Shown piece by piece: positions 4,168 through 17,129 of a stretch of 64,000 nucleotides of DNA (position 1 is the first letter of the stretch; the number at the start of each line of letters is the position of its first letter). The notes beneath the pieces are model-generated. The model made no database searches and had not been told where the DNA came from. It saw nothing but the letters and a program-made list of their open reading frames with translations. Made by a program: the position numbers and the translations under genes. The DNA comes from Selenomonas timonae (GTDB taxonomy: Bacteria; Bacillota; Negativicutes; Selenomonadales; Selenomonadaceae), in assembly GCF_014250475.1 (NCBI RefSeq), contig NZ_CP060204.1, forward strand, positions 124,001 through 188,000. Direction: 5' to 3'.

Positions 4168-4887
4168 TTACACATTCACATCCATAAGCCACTGATTTAT
4201 CCTTCGATCCAGCACTTCCAAGAGATCAGCATACCGTTCCCTCACCTCATGATAAATATCCCGCGCCACATTCTCATCATAGGTATGCGATGATAGATTA
4301 CGCTTCTCCATCATATCCAGCCACTCTTCAGCATCCGAAATCAGCCCCTGCTTCCATCCTTCTCGGATGCTGCTGCGCGGACTGTTTGCCTCGATACCTT
4401 CATACTCCAAAACTGCCTTCATCAACTTCCACGCAAGCTCAAAACAAAATTCAAAACGCTGAATCGTTGCATCCAAATACATATCATCCAGATCGGCTTC
4501 TTTTTTCAGCGCTGTCTGCAATCGCAATAATGCCCGATGATAATCTTCCGCTTTCAGGCGAATCCGCTCCACTGTCATAACACTTCTCCCTGCCTCCACA
4601 CAAAAAAGGAGTTTTCCCCCTCGATCAATTGCATCTCGCAGCTTTTCATTCGTTTGGTGATCGTAAAAAACAATATCGAATGTATAGGGTAAATTGCTCT
4701 GCTCAAATTCCTCTAACAAGGTGCTTCTTATGTCTTGATCGTTTTCTATCGCTAAATCGACATCGGATGTCACACGGTAATCTCCACGTGCCCTTGAACC
4801 AAAAAGCCTAACCTGGTGGATCTGATCGCGATGCCGATCTAAGATATGATAGATTTGCTTCCATTGTGCACTCGTTAATCCATACAC
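4168..4887 (-). CDS. fused minimal nucleotidyltransferase and HEPN (HI0074-type) protein
   Basis: Residues 1-100 are a minimal nucleotidyltransferase with GSRARG (30-35), the metal-binding pair D42-V-D44 and a third acidic residue D71. Residues 104-239 form a HEPN domain of the nucleotidyltransferase-substrate-binding (HI0074/HepT-like) family. It has the RX4HXY motif R196-NLSS-H201-T-Y203 typical of HEPN RNases. In known MNT-HEPN toxin-antitoxin modules the nucleotidyltransferase modifies and silences the HEPN toxin, and the two are usually separate genes. Here they share one frame. However, Met104 is preceded by GGGAG with 7-base spacing, so a stand-alone HEPN protein could also be made. 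Its composition is AT-richer than that of mtnA. Confidence 0.85.
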   Translation of the reverse strand: MYGLTSAQWKQIYHILDRHRDQIHQVRLFGSRARGDYRVTSDVDLAIENDQDIRSTLLEEFEQSNLPYTFDIVFYDHQTNEKLRDAIDRGGKLLFCVEAGRSVMTVERIRLKAEDYHRALLRLQTALKKEADLDDMYLDATIQRFEFCFELAWKLMKAVLEYEGIEANSPRSSIREGWKQGLISDAEEWLDMMEKRNLSSHTYDENVARDIYHEVRERYADLLEVLDRRINQWLMDVNV

Positions 4888-7128: not shown

Positions 7129-7953
7129 TCAGTCTGCACCAAATATATTATTCAAAGAAAAGCCTTCACACTTTTTGCATATAATATGTAACGTATATTG
7201 ACTTTGCATTTTCTTTGGGCTTAATCTGTAAGAACTAATCATTATATCCAAAAGTTGTTGCTGAGTAAGTTCCATATCAAACCGCGTTATTTTAGATCCG
7301 AGAATCGTGATGTAAACATCATCTGTCCCATGATAAATATCTATCTGTTCCCAAAGTTTCTCAAGGCAACCTAAATAATCCTCATATGTCAAATAGCCTC
7401 GTCCATTTTCATCCAATTTAGTAAATGCCATTAAAAGGAATTCACCATTAGGTACTAGTGTTCCTAATCCGTATCTTGTTTTCCCATTAAATGCTGATTT
7501 GCTCTCTGTAGGTTTTATTTTCGCAGCATCAATCAATTCTTGAATATTCAACATCGGAGATCTTCTCAAATACTGTCCACAAACAGAATTTTCCTTTACA
7601 TCTTCAGGTCTATCGCCAATTTTAACCGTAAAGCACTCATCAAATGCGATTACTTTTTTACCACCAGTTATATTAAAAATATCTCCGTATTCAATTTTAA
7701 CAGAAAAATTATGTCCTCTCACGGAAACCTTTCTCCGCTTTCCACGATAAACGCAATATAGAATATTCACTAGAAAAAAGATAAATGCGCCAACGATTAG
7801 TCGATTAACCATACCGCTCATGACATCGGACCAATCAGCATAAACCTTAAATGATGAAAATGCTCCTTCTGGCACGACAGTAAAAACTGCTGTAATTATT
7901 GCATATGCAAGAGAACTTCCCCTATTAAAGAAGATTTTTACAAATTTATTCAT
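7129..7953 (-). CDS. Thoeris-like effector: two transmembrane helices plus macro domain (ThsA type)
   Basis: The 274-residue protein has two membrane segments, about residues 13-32 and 52-70, then a basic stop-transfer RGKRRK. A cytoplasmic domain from about 78 to 265 is read here as the ThsA macro domain (DUF6430-like): FSVKIEYGDIFN, KVIAFDECF, the conserved CGQYLR region, NGEFLLMAF and DDVYITILGSKI. In type II Thoeris the TIR partner makes an ADP-ribose-derived signal on phage infection, and the macro domain binds it to trigger membrane damage. The upstream TIR-like gene overlaps this start by 8 bases, so the pair is translationally coupled. The call rests on architecture and pairing; catalytic and ligand residues were not checked by alignment. 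Confidence 0.75.
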   Translation of the reverse strand: MNKFVKIFFNRGSSLAYAIITAVFTVVPEGAFSSFKVYADWSDVMSGMVNRLIVGAFIFFLVNILYCVYRGKRRKVSVRGHNFSVKIEYGDIFNITGGKKVIAFDECFTVKIGDRPEDVKENSVCGQYLRRSPMLNIQELIDAAKIKPTESKSAFNGKTRYGLGTLVPNGEFLLMAFTKLDENGRGYLTYEDYLGCLEKLWEQIDIYHGTDDVYITILGSKITRFDMELTQQQLLDIMISSYRLSPKKMQSQYTLHIICKKCEGFSLNNIFGAD

Positions 7954-8545
7954 AGCCTAATTCTCTCTTTATAAATCCATAATTACCAATCTTCGTTCCT
8001 GCTTCATTTTTTATCCAAAACGGTCCTGCCAGAGGTGCATATTCACTCATATAATCAGGCAACCAACAAGTTTCTTTATAGAGAGAATTATATACAACTA
8101 TCATCTTCTTTTTCTTTTTCTTAGCTTGCTCAAATTCATGCCGAAGATAAGAATAATTATTAATATATCCAACATCGTCAACTGCGGGACATGTATCGTA
8201 TACTTTACACTGACACAGTCCATTGATATTCTGCTTATATGGTGTGCAGAAACAATCTCGTTGACACTTTTTATTGCGCTCGCATTTACTCCCGGCCATT
8301 CGTTGAGCCGTTCTATCCCCAATCACAATAATAACATGCGAAGATACATTAATTTGTCGATTGAACTCCGCCTTCAAATCACAAATTCGACAATCCGACT
8401 TCTTTGAAACACTACCCGACTTAACTTTTGCAGTATCTACAAACTCAACTTTATGTAGAGCATCCTTTCCCCAAGCATTCAGAATATCAACCACCTGCCG
8501 ATCACCACTATCTTCAGCATAATCAGCACTAATATAAACTCTCAT
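7946..8545 (-). CDS. Thoeris-like TIR-domain protein (ThsB type) with cysteine-rich insert
   Basis: The 199-residue protein starts MRVYISADYAEDSGD, the first strand and loop of a ThsB/DUF1863 TIR-like domain. It continues with VIIVIGDRT and LRHEFEQA...MIVVYN, where Glu137 is the probable NAD-cleaving glutamate. Between these motifs lies an unusual insert rich in cysteine (C88, C94, C98, C100, C111, C113, C119, plus C52 and C55 just before), which could bind metal. The ATG at 8545 is used because GGGAG lies 10 bases upstream and the TIR strand starts there; an in-frame extension to 8599 has no such support. It would sense phage and make the nucleotide signal for the overlapping membrane-macro protein. 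Confidence 0.75.
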   Translation of the reverse strand: MRVYISADYAEDSGDRQVVDILNAWGKDALHKVEFVDTAKVKSGSVSKKSDCRICDLKAEFNRQINVSSHVIIVIGDRTAQRMAGSKCERNKKCQRDCFCTPYKQNINGLCQCKVYDTCPAVDDVGYINNYSYLRHEFEQAKKKKKKMIVVYNSLYKETCWLPDYMSEYAPLAGPFWIKNEAGTKIGNYGFIKRELGYE

Positions 8546-8880
8546 TATTATTATTCTCCCATATAATCTTAAATTTTCTCCAAATATCCCCGTAGGCACA
8601 AGGTTTTCTCAGCGAGAAATTTTCATCCTTGAATCCCTCTTCACGGCATCGTCATTTTTTGTGGTTCTTCGCTGTTTGATACAGGCATTTAAAGAAAGCA
8701 TGTGTTCTTTTAGCGCATATACTTTTCTTCGCATAGACAAATTGTAGGATTTAGTGCGACTATGTATCAAGTATTTTTCGTAACCAAACTCAACCTTCGC
8801 ATATCAAAAGCATTCGTCACAGCTTGAAAAATATAATTTTGTAGCTCCCCCCTGCCGTATGCTCATGAAAAGTCCTCCCA
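8546..8880. other. 335-base AT-rich intergenic region between manC and the Thoeris-like pair
   Basis: No convincing gene is seen. A 41-codon minus-strand frame in the middle resembles nothing recognised. The only supported element is a possible promoter for the Thoeris-like pair, listed separately. No terminator could be identified after manC. Confidence 0.5.
8741..8770 (-). promoter_or_regulatory. possible promoter of the Thoeris-like operon
   Basis: On the minus strand TTGATA (8765-8770) and TACAAT (8741-8746) are separated by 18 bp, about 195 bases upstream of the TIR gene start. It is moderate consensus in AT-rich DNA, so chance occurrence is possible. Confidence 0.35.
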
Positions 8881-10197
8881 CTATGCCTTTCCCCACACAA
8901 TCTTATCCTCCACATCAATATCCTCCCCCGTCTGAATCTCCATCACCTTCAGCAGCGTCTCAGCCCGGATCGTATGGAAAGAACCTCTCGGAATCCGCAC
9001 CGTCTGCCCCTCGGCCACTGCGAACTCATTGCCGTCGAGCTTCACCCAACCGCGCCCCTCGATCACTGTCCACGTTTCATCGCGTCGTTCATGCAGATGG
9101 TAAGTCAGTGAGTGTCCGGGACTCAGCGTTATCTTGATCGTGAGACTCTCAGTTTCTGCGTCGATGATACGGAACTCGCCCCATGATTTTTCTGCATACA
9201 TCACAGGTGTATGCAAACGCTCCGCATATGGTTTCATCGCACTGGATCGTTCCTTGTCCGAAATAAGAATGCCCTCCGGGCTCGCTGCGACGACGACATC
9301 CTTCAGACCCATACAAAGAATGGGCATCGGCAATGTATTCACAACATGAGAATTCCTGCAAGTTTCGTCCATCGTAACGCGACCGATCGTATGCTCCGGC
9401 ATCACCTCGGCAAGCGTATTCCACGTTCCTATATCGAGCCAAGTGCCACTATAACGCTGCACAACAATACTGGATTCCTTTTCAACAACCGCATAGTCAA
9501 AGCTGATTTTAGTCAACTCCTCATAGCGATTGAAAAGATCCTCGTAGTCCGTATAGTCCAGCAGCTCACGAGCCTTATCGAGTGCATAGCCGAGTTTGAA
9601 CGCAAAAACGCCGCTGTTCCATAATGCTCCCTGCGCAATGTATTTCTCAGCGGTTTCCTTATCCGGTTTTTCTTTGAACTCCTGCACCTTACTTTGTTTT
9701 TCCTGCGAAACAGGCATGATATAGCCATACTTCTCACTCGGATACGTCGGCTCGATGCCCATTAAGATAAGATTCGCAGAACCTTCCCGTTCAGCTTCCT
9801 CGAGCAACTGCACAACGGCACGAAAATATCCTTCATCGACATAGGGGTCGGCAGGACAAATCGCCACAGCCTCATCGAGAGGGACACCACGCACCTCATG
9901 CAAATATGCAGAAACTAAGGCTATCGCAGGGAAGGTGTCCCGTCTGCACGGCTCGATGGAGATATTCACATCCTTGCCAAGCTGCCGACGAATCAGCGAA
10001 GTCTGCTCCCGTCCCGTTGCAACCGTGATAGGAACGTCAGGGGCAGCATTTTGTATCTGACGGCAAACACGCTGAATCATCGACTCCCGTGCTCCATCTT
10101 CTCGCTTTAATAGACGAAGAAATTGCTTAGAATATAGATCATTGGAGAGCGGCCATAGCCGCTTACCTGCCCCACCTGAGAGTAATACAATTTGCAT
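8881..10197 (-). CDS. manC: mannose-1-phosphate guanylyltransferase / mannose-6-phosphate isomerase
   Basis: A bifunctional enzyme of the type II phosphomannose isomerase family making GDP-mannose. The 438-residue protein has LLSGGAGKRLWPLS at the N-terminus (nucleotidyltransferase site), ICPADPYV, FKEKPDKETAEKYI, and a C-terminal cupin (PGHSLTYHLHERRDETWTVIEGRG). ATG 10197 is chosen because the family motif begins at once and GGAGTGG lies upstream; the in-frame extension to 10242 lacks a ribosome site. It is the last gene of the polysaccharide operon. No phosphomannomutase gene is present in the window. Its product feeds Gmd, encoded at 16.1-17.1 kb. Confidence 0.93.
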   Translation of the reverse strand: MQIVLLSGGAGKRLWPLSNDLYSKQFLRLLKREDGARESMIQRVCRQIQNAAPDVPITVATGREQTSLIRRQLGKDVNISIEPCRRDTFPAIALVSAYLHEVRGVPLDEAVAICPADPYVDEGYFRAVVQLLEEAEREGSANLILMGIEPTYPSEKYGYIMPVSQEKQSKVQEFKEKPDKETAEKYIAQGALWNSGVFAFKLGYALDKARELLDYTDYEDLFNRYEELTKISFDYAVVEKESSIVVQRYSGTWLDIGTWNTLAEVMPEHTIGRVTMDETCRNSHVVNTLPMPILCMGLKDVVVAASPEGILISDKERSSAMKPYAERLHTPVMYAEKSWGEFRIIDAETESLTIKITLSPGHSLTYHLHERRDETWTVIEGRGWVKLDGNEFAVAEGQTVRIPRGSFHTIRAETLLKVMEIQTGEDIDVEDKIVWGKA

Positions 10198-10257
10198 CTT
10201 GGTATCCACTCCATTGTTACAATCAGTTTTCGTCATTCTCATGACGAGATAACGTAT

Positions 10258-10298: not shown

Positions 10299-11495
10299 TT
10301 ACGCTTTATCCTGCAAGAACTCTTTAATTGCCGCCACAACCTTATCCAGCTGCTCCTTGCTCAGTCCATGATGACAGCCGACATAGAGTCCATAGTGATC
10401 CAACCACTCCGCAACAGGGTAGTCGCTTTCGATGTCACCAAACAACTTTTTATACACGGGCTGGTTCAACAGCGGAAGCATCGGGCGTGTTTCGATATTA
10501 TTCTTCTCCAAGAAATGTGTAAACTCATCCCGCGTAAAAGGTGCATCTTTCTTTATAACAAGCGGATACATCATAAACGAATGATCGACATAATCCGGAT
10601 ACTCAGGAAGCTGTAAATACTTCTCTGTTCCCTTCAGTTTCTCGCTAAGATAATGCGCATTTTCCTTGCGCGTATTCATAATCAGATCGCGATTTTCCAG
10701 CTGACCGAGTCCCAGAGCACCTTCCAGCTCGCCAATGCGGTAGCTGTAGCCCATACGAACCATCATAAAGCGCTTATCCATTTCCGTCTGCATGCGCAGC
10801 TTACAGACCTGCCTGGGATCAGACGCCAAGCATGTCTCACAGGTACAGGCACGTCCATGCGCGATAAGCGAGCGGGAAATTTCCGTCAACACCAGATTAT
10901 TCGTCGTGATAACCCCACCGATTCCTGTGGTAATCGTATGCGCAACATAGGTACTGAACGCAGCCATATCGCCAAAGCTTCCGATCTTCTTGTTCTTATA
11001 TGTTGCAAAATGAGCTTCTGCACAGTCCTCTAATATACGTAGCTTGTGTTTTTCTGCCACAGCCATGATTGCATCCATCTCACATGGCTGTCCGAATGTA
11101 TGCACTGGAATCGCTGCGACCGTCCGATCCGTGATGCGTTCTTCCATTTTAGAAGCATCCATGTTATAAGAAATCGGATCCACATCCACAAACACAGGCT
11201 TCAACCCCGCGTGAATGCAAGCATTCGATGTCGCAATGAAGGTAATCGCCGGGACGAGAACTTCGCTGCCATCTTCCCAACCATAGACTTCTTTCATTGC
11301 CTCCAAGCAAACATGCAAGGCAGATGTTCCACTATTACAGGCAACTCCATATTTCTGATCATGAAGCCGCGCGAACTCTTTCTCAAACTTATGAACCATC
11401 TTCCCCTGCGAAAGACGTCCTGCATCCAATGCTTCATTGACATAGCGTTTCTCAGCATCACTGACATATGCATATCCTACACCGATCTTCTCCAT
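10299..11495 (-). CDS. DegT/DnrJ-family sugar 3-dehydratase-like enzyme with Lys-to-His change
   Basis: This 398-residue fold-type I PLP protein has NSGTSALHVCLEAM, PAITFIATSNA, VHTFGQP and EDCAEAHFA. At the position of the Schiff-base lysine it has His186 in STYVAHTITTGIGG. The same Lys-to-His swap marks ColD (GDP-4-keto-6-deoxymannose 3-dehydratase) and E1/RfbH (CDP-4-keto-6-deoxyglucose 3-dehydrase), which remove the C3 hydroxyl. It also has C158-X58-C217-X-C219-X2-C222-X8-C231, resembling the iron-sulfur pattern C-X57-C-X-C-X7-C of E1. With gmd and manC in the operon, the likely substrate is GDP-4-keto-6-deoxymannose. An ordinary aminotransferase role is unlikely without the lysine. GGAGGAG precedes the ATG. 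Confidence 0.8.
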   Translation of the reverse strand: MEKIGVGYAYVSDAEKRYVNEALDAGRLSQGKMVHKFEKEFARLHDQKYGVACNSGTSALHVCLEAMKEVYGWEDGSEVLVPAITFIATSNACIHAGLKPVFVDVDPISYNMDASKMEERITDRTVAAIPVHTFGQPCEMDAIMAVAEKHKLRILEDCAEAHFATYKNKKIGSFGDMAAFSTYVAHTITTGIGGVITTNNLVLTEISRSLIAHGRACTCETCLASDPRQVCKLRMQTEMDKRFMMVRMGYSYRIGELEGALGLGQLENRDLIMNTRKENAHYLSEKLKGTEKYLQLPEYPDYVDHSFMMYPLVIKKDAPFTRDEFTHFLEKNNIETRPMLPLLNQPVYKKLFGDIESDYPVAEWLDHYGLYVGCHHGLSKEQLDKVVAAIKEFLQDKA

Positions 11496-11521: not shown

Positions 11522-12038
11522 TTATGCCGAAAGATACCCTTGCTCAATCAGGACATCATACTCTTTTTCTAAATACTCACGAGAAAATTTCTTTCCTTTT
11601 ATCACCTGCACCTGTTTAATGACAGCTTCTCTTACAGCCTTTCCAGACAGTAACGTATTTGCAACGTAATCTATTGTTGTCAGTGCCTCCAGCTCCATCG
11701 GAGTTCTATCATAAAAAGCTCTGCGCACCATGTCAACGAGCGCACTTTCCTCTTCTGCAAGTGCACTTTCCTCTTCAATTTGAGTGCTTGCCGATTCTTT
11801 CATGATAATCCAATGTGTCTGTCCAGATGTATCAATATCCAACCACTCCTCATTTTCGAGAATACGGATAACATGATCCAACCTTGCACTATACGGACCA
11901 AAAAAAGTGAATCGAATATCTTAAGTCTAATTGAACACCCTTTCGCTCAATCAGATACATAAGCTTCTGCAGCTTCTTCTTGCCAGTCTGATGATCCTTA
12001 CAAATATCTCCTATAAGGAATGCATATTTTTCAAGCAT
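11522..12038 (-). pseudogene. frameshifted winged-helix protein resembling the YwgA/Panacea group
   Basis: From ATG 12038 the frame reads MLEKYAFLIGDICKD, then KKKLQKLMYLIERKG and LRYSIHFF, and then hits a stop. The next frame continues without loss as FFGPYSARLDHVIRILENEEWLDI to a stop at 11522. The switch falls on a run of seven T residues on this strand (11900-11906); six would restore a protein of about 171 residues. The KLQKL...FGPYS...L pattern is typical of YwgA-like and Panacea-type winged-helix proteins. It may be a dead gene, a phase-variable gene or a sequencing error at a homopolymer. It lies inside the polysaccharide operon, just after an HD-domain fragment, as ywfO-ywgA neighbours occur in Bacillus. 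Confidence 0.65.
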
Positions 12039-12252: not shown

Positions 12253-13185
12253 TTAGTCTACGCAGCTATTCAGGAAATACTGATACGAGCGCTCAATCCC
12301 CTCGCGCAACGCCACCTTATGCTGCCATCCAAGTTCATGAATACGGGTAGAATCCACAAGACGGCGAGGTGCTCCATCCGGCTTCTCCGTATCATATATC
12401 AGCTTTCCATAAAAACCGACAACGGATGCAATCTCCTCGGCCAGCTCCTTCATGGACACTTCCTCACCACTACCGATGTTGATATGCCCCTCTTCATCGT
12501 AATTCTCCATAAGGAAAACGCAAGCATCCGCAAGATCATCTACATAGAGGAACTCACGCTTCGGGCTCCCCGTCCCCCAGAGAGTAACAGAGTCCGCGCC
12601 TTCTGCTTTTGCCGTATGGAACTTGCGAATCATTGCAGGGATAACATGTGACCCCTGCAAATCAAAGTTGTCATTCTCACCATAGATATTCGTCGGCATA
12701 CAGCTGATAAATGGATCATTGTATTGACGGTGGAAGAATTTCACCAATTCCAGCGCCGAAATCTTCGCAATGGCATACCCCTCATTTGTAGGCTCAGGCT
12801 TCCCATCCAAAAGGGCTTCCTCTCGAATCGGCTGTTCGGCAAACTTCGGATAAATGCAGGAACTCCCCAAAGCCAAAAGCTTTTTGACACCGACTTCATG
12901 TGCTGCATGAATAATATTCGCATTGATCATCAAGTTGACATACAGAAAATCAGCGGGAAAAGAACTGTTCGCCTGTATTCCACCGACCTTCGCCGCAGCG
13001 ATAAATACATAGTCAGGCCGTTCCCGCTCAAAAAAAATCTTTGTCGCCTGCTGATCTGTCAAATCAAGTTCACGATGCGTTCTCAGCAGCAGGTTATGAT
13101 ACCCGCTCTTTTGCAGATAACGGACAATGGCAGAACCAACCATTCCTGTATGCCCTGGAACGTAGATTTTATCCGTATTTTCCAT
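12253..13185 (-). CDS. fcl: GDP-L-fucose synthase-like epimerase/reductase (Fcl/WcaG/ColC family)
   Basis: A 310-residue extended SDR with VPGHTGMVGSAIVRYL (nucleotide site), AAAKVGGI, LGSSCIYPKFAEQPI and YAIAKISALE with the YxxxK pair. NIYGENDNFDLQGSHVIPAMIRKF and TLWGTGSPKREFLYVDD are hallmarks of Fcl. Fcl converts GDP-4-keto-6-deoxymannose to GDP-L-fucose by 3,5-epimerisation and 4-reduction; the homologue ColC acts on the 3-deoxy form to make GDP-L-colitose. With a ColD-like enzyme in the same operon either product is possible. The ATG at 13185 has GGGAGG upstream and replaces a longer in-frame extension. Confidence 0.88.
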   Translation of the reverse strand: MENTDKIYVPGHTGMVGSAIVRYLQKSGYHNLLLRTHRELDLTDQQATKIFFERERPDYVFIAAAKVGGIQANSSFPADFLYVNLMINANIIHAAHEVGVKKLLALGSSCIYPKFAEQPIREEALLDGKPEPTNEGYAIAKISALELVKFFHRQYNDPFISCMPTNIYGENDNFDLQGSHVIPAMIRKFHTAKAEGADSVTLWGTGSPKREFLYVDDLADACVFLMENYDEEGHINIGSGEEVSMKELAEEIASVVGFYGKLIYDTEKPDGAPRRLVDSTRIHELGWQHKVALREGIERSYQYFLNSCVD

Positions 13186-13232
13186 GCTTACCTCCCGAGA
13201 ATTATATTTCATATCCGTTTTTTCGAAGTTCA

Positions 13233-14306
13233 TCAAGATGTACTATATAGAGATTTAATTCCTCGGATAACTGCATTCGCTCCCTCTTGCAGAGAAAACT
13301 GACATTCCCACCCCAAAGCTTCCAACGCACTAGGATCCATTTTTTGATTCGTGGTAACATTCCCCTTCGAATCAGGATTCAAATTGTTTGCGTGCAGGAT
13401 TTCAAAAGTTCCCGCAGGAGAAAGCGCCTCATACATATATTGAAGCAATATTTCTACAGGATATGACTCTCGAATGCATATATTATATGCGTTTCCGGAA
13501 ACTCCTTTCAGCAACAGAAGAAGCATTGCCGAGACAACATCACCCGCGTAAGTATATTGTATCGTATCCTCTTCGTGATTGATGGATACATTTTCCTCAT
13601 GCAACATACGGTTCAATATCCTTGGAATAAAACGCGTATCATGGGCAAGCAAATAGGTTGGGGCGTATGTATACGGAATACGGGCAATAATTGTTCTAAC
13701 ACCATATTCCCGTGCATAGGCTGAACACATTTGTTCTCCTAATCGTTTCGATTCCACATACGATGATCGATCATTCAACGGATTCACAATACCATAATCT
13801 TGTTCCGTCAAAAGAGCCTTGCCTAAAATATGTACATCGCCATAAACCGCCGCAGAGCTCATATAGAGAACGCACGTCCCCTCCCGTTTTTTCGCGTACT
13901 CCATAACAGATTTCGTTCCAATAACATTAGGGAGTATCGTTTCCACCGGCTGTTTGACAAACGCGGTGCCATTGGCGGGACTCGCACCATGAATGACAAA
14001 ATCCACATTAAGCTGTTCAGGAATCCCCTGTTCCAAGTCAAAAACTTCAAAACAAATACACTCTTCATGAAGCAAGTCTGAAAACAGGCTCTCAAGACGA
14101 TCTTTTGATCGCCCATGACAAACAACTTGAATATTCAATCCATATAAACGATTTAGCTCCAGCAGAAACCGCGCCGCATACGACAACACCACGCCTGTCG
14201 CCCCAAGAAGCAAAATCCGCTTTCCTTTTAATTCGTAAGGAACGGGCATTTTCCCCGAATAGATTTTCCTGACATCTAAATCAATGGAATACACGCCAAC
14301 CTCCAT
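13233..14306 (-). CDS. NAD-dependent epimerase/reductase with altered nucleotide-binding motif
   Basis: This 357-residue extended SDR has the first strand RILLLGATGVVLS, HGASPANGT, MSSAAVYG, and YVESKRLGEQM with YxxxK. The dinucleotide motif GxxGxxG is incomplete: G35 and G38 are present but the third position is Leu41. It lies directly after the split transketolase genes. It could reduce or epimerise the keto sugar they produce, which is inference. The start at 14306 is chosen because family similarity begins shortly after; no strong Shine-Dalgarno site is visible, and translation may be coupled to the upstream gene ending at 14314. A longer in-frame start at 14351 would overlap that gene. 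Confidence 0.75.
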   Translation of the reverse strand: MEVGVYSIDLDVRKIYSGKMPVPYELKGKRILLLGATGVVLSYAARFLLELNRLYGLNIQVVCHGRSKDRLESLFSDLLHEECICFEVFDLEQGIPEQLNVDFVIHGASPANGTAFVKQPVETILPNVIGTKSVMEYAKKREGTCVLYMSSAAVYGDVHILGKALLTEQDYGIVNPLNDRSSYVESKRLGEQMCSAYAREYGVRTIIARIPYTYAPTYLLAHDTRFIPRILNRMLHEENVSINHEEDTIQYTYAGDVVSAMLLLLLKGVSGNAYNICIRESYPVEILLQYMYEALSPAGTFEILHANNLNPDSKGNVTTNQKMDPSALEALGWECQFSLQEGANAVIRGIKSLYSTS

Positions 14307-14313
14307 ATCTATA

Positions 14314-15144
14314 TCAATACTTTTGGAGTTCGCGAAACGCCTTTTCGACATCCTCTGGTTTATTGGGCATATAACCATGCATTAAGGGCTTGTCATAAAG
14401 ATATTCGAGCCCTTTCCCTTTAATGGTATTAGCAATAATGCAAAGCGGTCTGGATCTACGAGGAGAATGACTCGCTTTCAGCACAGGAACAAGCTCTTCA
14501 TACGTATGTCCATCGACCTTCTGCACATCCCAATTACAAGCACTCCATTTCTCAGCAAAAGGTTCCATACGTAGCATGCGCTCAGTAAAATCTGAACACC
14601 CAAGTGCATTGCGATCTACAATGGCAACAAGGTTGCTCAGACCTTGATGCCCCGCAAACATAGCCGCCTCCCAAACAGAGCCTTCACAACACTCCGCATC
14701 GCCAACGAGGCAATATGTGTACCAATTCTCTCGGTTCAAACGTGCACCAAGTGCCAATCCTGCCGCAATCCCTAAGCCGTGCCCGAGAGAACCGCCATAA
14801 AAATCATAGCCGGGCAAAAACAGGCTGCGAATATACTCGTAGTCTCCTCCAATGCGGATCATGTCATCGGTCTGTTCGGGGGAAAGATAGCCAATCTCCT
14901 CAAAGATCGGAAAAAGCATACCCGCACCATGTCCCTTGCTCAGGACGAACCGATCCCTACCTCCCCAGTTCGGATTTTCTGCTTGGTAACATAAAACTTC
15001 CTTATAGAGTGTTACCAAAATTTCCGTTGCCGAAAAAGCGGTCGTCACGTGACCGAATCCGAGTCGCGTAAAGATTTCCAAAAAACGCTTCCGCATCTGA
15101 TAGGACAATGCGTACAACGATTCAAATTCACGTGCTTCAGCCAT
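14314..15144 (-). CDS. transketolase-like subunit, N-terminal (thiamine-diphosphate) half
   Basis: The 276-residue protein equals the PP-binding domain of transketolase. RDRFVLSKGHGAGMLF holds conserved substrate and cofactor residues, and GSLGHGLGIAAGLALGARL is followed by the ThDP/Mg motif G148-DAE...N179. With the 316-residue partner it forms a two-subunit enzyme that would move a two-carbon unit. Its position between gmd and sugar SDR genes suggests it builds a branched sugar rather than serving the pentose phosphate pathway. Two-subunit ThDP enzymes such as AviB1/AviB2 do this in avilamycin. It overlaps the partner gene by 8 bases. Confidence 0.85.
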   Translation of the reverse strand: MAEAREFESLYALSYQMRKRFLEIFTRLGFGHVTTAFSATEILVTLYKEVLCYQAENPNWGGRDRFVLSKGHGAGMLFPIFEEIGYLSPEQTDDMIRIGGDYEYIRSLFLPGYDFYGGSLGHGLGIAAGLALGARLNRENWYTYCLVGDAECCEGSVWEAAMFAGHQGLSNLVAIVDRNALGCSDFTERMLRMEPFAEKWSACNWDVQKVDGHTYEELVPVLKASHSPRRSRPLCIIANTIKGKGLEYLYDKPLMHGYMPNKPEDVEKAFRELQKY

Positions 15145-16087
15145 TATCCATCATCTCCTCAAAGGTTTTTTGCAATCTTTTTTCAAGCGATTTTATATCA
15201 TATCCCATTTCATCATAGATCTCATTGCGGTTCATAATACGCCCTTCCCAGTGCTTCGGTTCAATGCCCAAAGACCGAATCGGCTTTACGATCCCATGCT
15301 TAGAGAGAATTTCCATAATAAGTGAACCAAGCCCCGCACAAGGCGTCTGATCCTCAAGTGTCACAATACATGAAAACGATTTCAATCGTTCCGCTAGCAA
15401 ATCCGTATCCAGAGGGAACGCATAGCAATCAAAAAGGCTCGGGGGTTCGCCCTGAATCTTAATTGTGTTGATGCTATTTTTCAGCATAGAAGAAAAATTC
15501 CCGGTCGTAATGACGGCAAATAGTTCTGATGCTTGCATCTCAAAAAATCCCTTTTGGAAATCCACCTCACTCTCTTGATAATACGCTTCCGTTAAAAATT
15601 TATCAAATCGAATATACGTCGGCAACGAGGACATCACCAACTCACGCGCTGCCACTTGTGCAATAGAAGTATCGGATGGATTTACCATCTTTATGGAAGG
15701 GATCATGCGAACCATCGCAAAGTCTTCGAGCGGCATATGTGTGTATCCACATTCTGCCGAGCATGTCCCTGTATTGAGCGCTGCAACAGTAACCGGAATC
15801 CTAAGATCGCCCAAGAAATTGCGCAGCTGGTCGTACGCACGCGTCACAGGGAAAGGATTCAGACCAAAAGCAATGACATGCTTCCCACTCAGCGCAAGAC
15901 CGGTCGCAACCGAGAGGAGGTTCTGCTCTGCAATGCCAACATTGACAAAGCGGTGCGGAAATTTACGCCGAAATTCATCCAAACTCGGCGCGCCTAAGTC
16001 CGCAGATACAATAACGATATCTTCTCCCTGTTCCGTCATCCGATAGATTTCAGAAAAGAACGCATCTCTTACACTCGGCAATCTCAT
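15137..16087 (-). CDS. transketolase-like subunit, C-terminal half
   Basis: The 316-residue partner of the preceding half has the pyrimidine-binding domain: VIVSADLGAPS, then VNVGIAEQNLLSVATGLAL with the cofactor-activating Glu54, then TGTCSAECGYTHMPLEDFAM and IKMVNPSDT. A C-terminal transketolase domain follows from about residue 185. AGGAGGGGG precedes the ATG. It is 11 bases downstream of gmd in the operon. Full-length transketolases used in central metabolism can also be split in this phylum, but the surrounding sugar-nucleotide genes argue for glycan precursor synthesis. Confidence 0.85.
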   Translation of the reverse strand: MRLPSVRDAFFSEIYRMTEQGEDIVIVSADLGAPSLDEFRRKFPHRFVNVGIAEQNLLSVATGLALSGKHVIAFGLNPFPVTRAYDQLRNFLGDLRIPVTVAALNTGTCSAECGYTHMPLEDFAMVRMIPSIKMVNPSDTSIAQVAARELVMSSLPTYIRFDKFLTEAYYQESEVDFQKGFFEMQASELFAVITTGNFSSMLKNSINTIKIQGEPPSLFDCYAFPLDTDLLAERLKSFSCIVTLEDQTPCAGLGSLIMEILSKHGIVKPIRSLGIEPKHWEGRIMNRNEIYDEMGYDIKSLEKRLQKTFEEMMDNG

Positions 16088-16097
16088 CCCCCTCCTT

Positions 16098-17129
16098 TCA
16101 GGCGTGCGTTTTTGCCAAATCCGCTGTGACCATCATCTTGACCAACTCGGCAAATCCAATCTTGCGCTTCCAGCCTAGCTCTCTCTCTGCCTTCGTCGAA
16201 TCTCCCCAAAGAAGCTCGACCTCTGCCGGACGATAGAACTGCTCTGCCACATCGACAAGAAGCTTTCCCGTTTTGGCATCGTAGCCTTTCTCATTGATGC
16301 CCTCACCTTCCCAGCGAATCGAAACGCCCGTCTCAGCAAAAGCTTTCTCCACAAACTCACGCACAGTATGGGTCTCATTCGTGGCAAGTACATAGTCCTC
16401 CGGATGCTCCTGCTGAAGTATCCGCCACATCCCCTCTACGTAATCCCCCGCAAAGCCCCAATCGCGCTTCGCCTCAAGATTTCCAAGGGTCAGTTTCTCC
16501 TGCAAGCCCTTCGTAATCCGAGCAACTGCAAGCGTAATCTTGCGTGTCACAAATGTCTCCCCGCGACGCGGTGACTCATGGTTGAAAAGGATTCCGTTGC
16601 ACGCAAACATTCCATAGGACTCGCGGTAGTTCTTTGTAATCCAAAAGGAATAGAGCTTTGCCGCCCCATAAGGACTCTTCGGATAGAATGGAGTTGCCTC
16701 GCTCTGAGGCGCCGTCTCGGGCAAGCCCCCAAAAAGTTCTGAAGTCGATGCTTGATAGAAGCGTATCGGCAGCCCGCTCTGGCGTACTGCCTCAAGCAGA
16801 CGAATCGTACCGACACCTGTTGCCTCTGCCGTATACTCCGGCACCTCAAACGATACTGCCACATGGGACTGCGCCGCAAGATTATAGACTTCATCCGGCC
16901 GGATCTCCTGAATCAAGCGGTGTGCATTGCTTGAATCCGTCATATCGCCATAGTGCAGGAAAACGCGATCAGCAAATACCGGATCGCCTAAAATATGATC
17001 GATCCGCTCCGTATTCTGACTGCTCTGTCTGCGAATGATACCGTGTACCTCATATCCCTTTTCCAACAACAATTCTGTAAGATACGAGCCATCCTGTCCT
17101 GTAATTCCTGTAATCAACGCTTTTTTCAC
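16098..17129 (-). CDS. gmd: GDP-mannose 4,6-dehydratase
   Basis: It converts GDP-mannose to GDP-4-keto-6-deoxymannose, the branch point for fucose, colitose, rhamnose and perosamine. The 343-residue protein has [66 protein letters not shown] with Yxxx[18 protein letters not shown] and [13 protein letters not shown]. All are textbook GMD signatures. The start is GTG at 17129, overlapping the wzx stop by 4 bases with GGGAGG upstream. It supplies the keto intermediate to the DegT-like, Fcl-like and transketolase-like enzymes encoded downstream. Confidence 0.96.

Follow-up and report, generated by a model that had tools for sequence, protein, structure and literature searches.

A histidine-type DegT-family enzyme with a conserved four-cysteine loop, candidate 3-dehydratase of a GDP-sugar pathway in Selenomonas timonae

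The window, which is the whole analysed stretch of 64,000 nucleotides of the Selenomonas timonae genome (contig NZ_CP060204.1, positions 124,001–188,000), codes on its minus strand at 10299–11495 for a protein of 398 amino acids with an ATG start, called P0001 in the following. P0001 belongs to the DegT/DnrJ/EryC1/StrS family (PF01041, 327.7 bits versus a cut-off of 19.8, residues 13–390) and has cysteines at positions 53, 63, 93, 138, 158, 217, 219, 222, 231, and 374 and a histidine at position 186. As derived from the coordinates of the open reading frame, the codon of His186, at the position of the PLP lysine, lies at 10938–10940 on the minus strand, and the codons 217–231, which form a C-x-C-x2-C-x8-C loop and thereby a candidate metal site, lie at 10803–10847 on the same strand; the Cys158 codon is at 11022–11024, likewise on the minus strand. 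The genome has ten places above the cut-off of PF01041, and the four strong ones are P0001, one RfbH with a histidine and two genes with a lysine.

The genes around P0001 which are discussed here are all on the minus strand. A mannose-1-phosphate guanylyltransferase with a mannose-6-phosphate isomerase C-terminal domain (GMP, 8881–10242) matches TIGR01479 with 221 bits, below the cut-off of 373. On the upstream side there is a Fcl-type GDP-sugar epimerase/reductase (12253–13236) with 52% identity to Escherichia coli Fcl and 40% to ColC of E. coli O55 (NF047922, 466 bits, cut-off 500). According to their domain matches, the next genes code for a protein of the NAD-dependent epimerase/dehydratase family (SDR, 13233–14378), which might be the reductase of a branched product, and for the two halves of a split transketolase, the N-terminal ThDP-binding half (14314–15144) and the C-terminal half (15137–16087). 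The last gene of this set, at 16098–17129, codes for a GDP-mannose 4,6-dehydratase (GMD; TIGR01472, 548 bits, cut-off 415).

Several other genes are found in this part of the window or at corresponding places in relatives. Between the GMP gene and a galE-like gene, and thus inside the polysaccharide locus, lies a Thoeris-type pair of a ThsA-macro and a ThsB-TIR-like gene (7129–8599; PADLOC 329 and 316 bits). In genome G052 an abortive infection gene of the AbiH type stands between the DegT and GMP genes (L159, 9381–10640). The DegT gene is preceded by a small gene (11522–11881) without a Pfam match; it also occurs in two relatives (L009, 8161–9971; L159, 6165–7972), in both of which an HD-domain gene lies before the small gene, and its Centipeda homologue has a weak SocA/Panacea match below the cut-off. 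A single open reading frame at 4168–4887 combines a nucleotidyltransferase domain and a substrate-binding/HepT-like domain, which are often encoded by two genes.

When a profile of ten members was searched against 380 genomes of the class, 26 loci in 25 genomes (two copies in G705) were matched at 231–831 bits, the low scorers being fragments, and the remaining matches had 205 bits or less. One locus is cut off (G607) and one is broken by stops (G632), and both are outside the cysteine count; the other 24 loci, the window counted, could be scored and are 66.8–100% identical. C158, H186, C217, C219, C222, and C231 are kept in 24 of these 24 loci, and therefore the pattern is not a matter of chance. 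The spacing C158-x58-C217-x-C219-x2-C222-x8-C231, which had been described from the window's letters, is correct in P0001. In a draw of 398 genomes from the phylum the window genome alone was matched at 1e-80, and among the matches listed none of ten other genomes of the same genus was found at 1e-50 or better. One of the family-bearing genomes, G596, is classed in the genus of the window.

The sequence-only reading had also proposed that His186 replaces the Schiff-base lysine. An alignment of the relatives bears this out: after collapsing 205 sequences to 153 distinct ones, the column of residue 186 has 67 histidines and 86 lysines, the lysine-type rows having been picked in part by similarity to P0001, and in all 24 scorable loci the residue is histidine.

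The neighbouring genes are informative concerning the substrate. In 16 of the 26 loci the nearest upstream sugar gene is an orthologue of colitose synthase ColC (48–57% identity to ColC of E. coli O55) and the direct neighbour; among these is the ColC-like protein of Selenomonas ruminis with 52% identity to ColC and 40% to Fcl. In 9 of 26 loci, the window included, the nearest upstream sugar gene is of the Fcl type (48–56% to E. coli Fcl), with one or two genes between it and the DegT gene in the window, in G596 and in G052, and in the remaining locus the contig ends. In five of the ColC loci a Fcl gene follows farther upstream. Of the 26 stretches, 17 contain GMD and 19 contain GMP; among the nine that lack GMD, only G618 extends for ∼8 kb in both directions. 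ColD, also used as a query, gave the best match in none of the 26 family stretches. From the ColC or Fcl, GMD, and GMP neighbours we infer GDP-4-keto-6-deoxymannose as the substrate, on which P0001 is likely to do a job similar to that of ColD. The assignment to a GDP-sugar pathway and to the histidine-type enzymes related to ColD and E1, made beforehand from the window itself, agrees with these neighbours, and that P0001 is a 3-dehydratase acting on a GDP-sugar appears highly probable to us. In an oral Selenomonas-type bacterium the product is probably destined for a surface polysaccharide.

Two arrangements of related genes were seen alongside. In S. ruminis (L165, 832–12747) a CDP set of RfbF, SDR, E1, a transketolase pair, and RfbG, in which RfbF and SDR were named by eye, adjoins a GDP set of GMD, ColC-like, DegT, GMP, and phosphomannomutase genes, so that two different 3-deoxygenases are located in one cluster. 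In contigs of the viral collection (L167–L180 and L254–L268) there are histidine-type relatives without the cysteine loop, several of them beside GMD and SDR genes.

A model of P0001 calculated with AF2 from 21 sequences has a mean pLDDT of 89.4. Among the fold matches GDP-perosamine synthase, a transaminase of GDP-4-keto-6-deoxymannose, ranks first (Z 52.6, rmsd 1.5, 366 aligned, 38% identity); E1 (Z 51.2, rmsd 2.3–2.5, 379–382 aligned) and ColD (Z 49.3, rmsd 1.9, 377 aligned) are matched as well. The predicted fold does not choose between these functions. That GDP-perosamine synthase is the top match, with E1 1.4 Z lower, would suit a role of P0001 as an aminotransferase of sugars or as an epimerase-like enzyme rather than as a 3-dehydratase. 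We consider this quite unlikely, as none of the 24 scorable loci has a Schiff-base lysine, ColC, which in the known pathway acts on the 3-deoxy product, adjoins in 16 of 26 loci, and E1 with its histidine changed to lysine transaminates, yet not catalytically, as retold in the relevant passage of PMC8987622.

More distant members of the family allow the cysteines to be sorted. Two loop-bearing proteins were found when the cysteine-less L018 was used as query against 251 Chloroflexota genomes, one from Solidesulfovibrio magneticus came from the plasmid search, and L250, L251, and L252 came from a scan of viral contigs with protein profiles; in the structure alignment A2 each set of identical viral loci is represented by one member. 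A DNA pattern for the loop had no match in the viral contigs, being too narrow, as the three members found there by protein profiles demonstrate. In phage records nothing was matched at 1e-40, and in plasmid records P0001 had a single match at 1e-60. All six remote proteins, which are 35–44% identical to P0001, have His186, the exact C-x-C-x2-C-x8-C motif and an alanine at position 158. In an alignment of ten members (35% to 77% identical to P0001) H186, C217, C219, C222, C231, and R234 are invariant, whereas C53, C63, C93, C138, C158, and C374 vary. The motif was found in none of the 86 lysine-type relatives and in none of the 63 of a second lysine-type set which shares no sequence with the first.

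Cys158, invariant in the scorable Negativicutes loci but not in the remote members, is also present in 43 of the 86 lysine-type relatives. Since it is common in lysine-type enzymes and replaced by alanine in the remote loop bearers, the candidate metal site, as far as conservation tells, is the four-cysteine loop of C217, C219, C222, and C231, and C158 is background and probably not a ligand. Thus the earlier grouping of C158 with the loop cysteines has to be given up, all the more as the E1 ligand C193 falls on A159. The histidine is independent of the loop: it is kept in relatives without the cysteine loop (L019, L182, L296, and a clade with an acidic loop), and the loop is consequently dispensable for whatever the histidine does.

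The loop might also be free of metal and serve as a thiol/disulfide switch or as a packing element. Its weak definition in the AF2 model (70, 49, and 56 for three consecutive blocks of ten residues between 211 and 240, and below 50 at 222–225) would fit with such a role. Nevertheless, the residues between the loop cysteines vary while the C-x-C-x2-C-x8-C spacing stays exact, and a loop without metal is in our opinion unlikely.

How closely does the loop resemble the cluster site of E1? We take C193, C251, C253, and C261 to be the cluster ligands of E1, which presumably follow the pattern C-X57-C-X-C-X7-C given in the sequence-only reading. In the phmmer alignment to 3bcx, residues 118–220 of P0001 are aligned to 152–254 of E1 without gaps, and C217 is paired with C251, C219 with C253, A159 with C193, and C158 with C192. 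A profile–profile alignment of ten loop bearers with ten E1 sequences (E 2e-74) puts the CxC of the loop on the CxC of E1 and C231-x2-R on the last Cys-x2-R of E1, and leaves C222 unpaired. The E1 spacing is not reproduced, as there are 11 residues between the CxC and the last cysteine (7 in E1) and C193 falls on A159. The proposed E1-like cysteine pattern thus holds in part: the CxC and the last cysteine of the loop are found on three E1 ligands in the profile alignment, and C158 has no share in the likeness. In E1 and SpnQ the PMP is surrounded by four cysteines, according to the part of PMC8987622 that describes these enzymes, with a reference to the publication on the motif.

Could P0001 be an orthologue of E1/RfbH with a changed nucleotide? 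RfbH is the best NCBIfam match of P0001, with 256.3 bits to NF011936; however, this is far below the cut-off of 423, and a true RfbH/E1 with 710 bits is present elsewhere in the window genome. The ligand pattern differs, and the family forms a separate clade (AU p 5e-74, rounded; see below). With the sub-cut-off score, the true RfbH elsewhere, and the tree against it, we have rejected this identification, which we consider extremely improbable. The true RfbH/E1 of the window genome (L163, 7373–9852) has as neighbours a gene resembling CDP-glucose 4,6-dehydratase and an open reading frame of transposase type, both recognized by eye.

The phylogenetic trees were built with the loop columns left out. 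A first, quick tree of 85 rows, in which 14 of the 24 scorable Negativicutes loci were included, places the loop bearers in two places. On this quick tree, with groups that were defined only once the sequences were known, AU tests reject the loop bearers as one clade (p 3.5e-8) and the loop bearers together with E1 as one clade (p 4.8e-74). For a careful tree of 94 rows, 18 near-copies or similar rows were removed and 27 (17 with His, 10 with Lys) were added. Here ColD is one clade (100/97) and joined with E1 at 100/100, apart from the P0001 family, and a branch with 100/96 has all 27 lysine rows on the same side. The P0001 family is thus a lineage of histidine-type enzymes outside the ColD and E1 clades, and P0001 as an orthologue of ColD was likewise rejected, as this tree puts ColD with E1.

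The new histidine group as a whole is weakly supported (87/41). Within it, the Negativicutes loop bearers form a clade (100/100), close to which another clade unites 17 cysteine-less rows, 11 of which have an acidic IDDD loop (100/99). Six loop bearers and three loop-less proteins make up a second branch (100/100). On the careful tree the loop label requires three changes. One gain of the loop followed by losses and several gains are both possible; losses appear more likely because of the shared frame GR-x-C-x-C ... C-x2-R.

The earlier observation that no E3-type reductase gene is visible extends to the whole window genome, in which the Fer2 domain of the E3 type has no match. Altogether 18 of the 25 family-bearing genomes, the window's included, are without a Fer2 match. 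A true RfbH/E1 is present in 11 of the 25 genomes, and six of these 11 also have no Fer2 match (G000, G052, G643, G618, G599, and G607), G000 and G052 alone being near complete and the other four 60–88% complete. Because E1 itself occurs in genomes without Fer2, the lack of an E3 does not speak against a cluster, and we have dropped it as a deciding argument. E1 in G000 and G052 probably works without a classical E3. A Fer2 protein near E1 in G705 is not a candidate for E3, as its FAD_binding_5, CO_deh_flav_C, and Fer2_2 matches are those of the molybdenum-hydroxylase type. SpnQ is described in PMC8987622, in the section that concerns it, as working with ferredoxin or flavodoxin systems.

Based on these observations we suggest that P0001 is a PMP-dependent 3-dehydratase of nucleotide sugars whose lineage is distinct from those of ColD and E1, with an iron–sulfur cluster in the loop and a general electron donor; taken as a whole, this proposal has about an even chance of being right. 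GMP and GMD would provide GDP-4-keto-6-deoxy-D-mannose, the PMP in P0001 would form an imine with the ketone at C4, His186 would take a proton from the cofactor, and the hydroxyl group at C3 would leave, with GDP-3,6-dideoxy-4-keto-mannose as the product. In most relatives ColC would convert this product to GDP-L-colitose, and in the window the Fcl-type enzyme, perhaps together with the split transketolase and the SDR, would finish a different 3,6-dideoxy sugar. C217, C219, C222, and C231 would bind the cluster beside the PMP; three of them would occupy ligand positions of E1, while the fourth ligand would have shifted into the loop. The cluster would pass on electrons from a general ferredoxin or flavodoxin and not from a dedicated E3.

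A site of four cysteines within one loop also suits zinc. P0001 might then be a 3-dehydratase similar to ColD: glutamate would serve to regenerate the PMP, the intermediate would undergo hydrolysis without any need for electrons, and a structural zinc would be held by the four cysteines. The ColC, GMD, and GMP neighbours as in the O55 colitose cluster, the lack of a Fer2 match in the window genome, and the histidine of the loop-less and acidic-loop relatives are all compatible with this, as is ColD itself, which carries out the same reaction without needing a cluster according to the passage on ColD in PMC8987622. For the C3-dehydratases of C. jejuni, assays of the type that combines GMD and GDP-mannose with PLP and glutamate are described in PMC10440746. 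On the other hand, the loop is at the place of three E1 ligands and shares the frame of E1. We regard the zinc-bearing, ColD-like enzyme as a serious possibility but not as the probable one, and a bound iron–sulfur cluster is in our judgement somewhat favoured over zinc or a metal-free loop.

The final product in the window is less certain, as Fcl replaces ColC and the split transketolase and the SDR are located between GMD and Fcl; the final sugar may be branched. Of the 26 loci, two (the window and G052) have both transketolase halves next to the family gene, a count made without a control set and with most loci lacking the pair. The halves are also near two of the six remote members (G823 and L250), and S. 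magneticus has a pair of a ThDP E1-alpha and a transketolase C-terminal protein near the family gene, while in the available flanks of the remaining remote members (G777, L251, and L252) no transketolase pair was found. In addition, the halves are located beside a loop-less relative in L021, and in S. ruminis the pair stands with the true E1 in the CDP-sugar set next to the GDP set. In the parts of a 2025 review that treat these enzymes (PMC12247030), sugar branching by transketolases is mentioned for miharamycin and amipurimycin only, in both cases as a proposal that had not been examined in vitro, and the LPS branching enzymes are YerE-like. The split transketolase (14314–16087) and the SDR of the window are candidates for the formation of a 4-C-branched surface sugar.

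A more far-reaching reading, which we put forward tentatively and hold to be rather doubtful, is that the P0001 family is a third lineage of C3-deoxygenases with all iron–sulfur ligands in one loop. The cluster would be old in the histidine-type enzymes and would have disappeared independently from ColD, the acidic-loop clade, and the loop-less clade, and cluster-free deoxygenation would have evolved several times. The split transketolase of the window and of some relatives would use the 3-deoxy-4-keto sugar as its acceptor on the way to a 4-C-branched sugar of the surface polysaccharide. E1 and ColD achieve the same deoxygenation by different routes, the former with an iron–sulfur cluster and the latter without one, and the new histidine-type group, the unity of which is weakly supported, spans cysteine-loop, acidic-loop, and loop-less members, all with the catalytic histidine. 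A comparison of the three loop types would show what the cluster is for and whether chemistry of the ColD type arose by loss. The P0001 family is also a candidate for the ColD step in colitose-type clusters of the Negativicutes. We found no characterized member of the family and no description of it among the open-licence PMC matches listed, judged by titles and the beginnings of abstracts, and in this literature no paper deals with both Selenomonas and colitose.

Among the known systems, E1/RfbH/SpnQ, which carry a [2Fe-2S] cluster, share with P0001 the histidine at the PLP site and the GR-x-C-x-C ... C-x2-R loop in the same place. P0001 differs from them by having no equivalent of C193, an extra cysteine, C222, four more residues between the CxC and the last cysteine, a GDP rather than a CDP or TDP context, and a separate clade. 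GDP-perosamine synthase (38% identity over the aligned part) and the other lysine-type DegT transaminases share the fold; P0001, however, has a histidine in place of the catalytic lysine and a cysteine motif that occurs in 0 of 86 and 0 of 63 lysine-type rows. ColD of E. coli O55 shares with P0001 the histidine at the position of the PLP lysine, the DegT fold, and likely the substrate, and the GMD, ColC, and GMP neighbours are common to ColD and most P0001 relatives, with Fcl in place of ColC in the window and eight other loci, whereas the two proteins are only 30% identical, and ColD has no cysteine loop and groups with E1.
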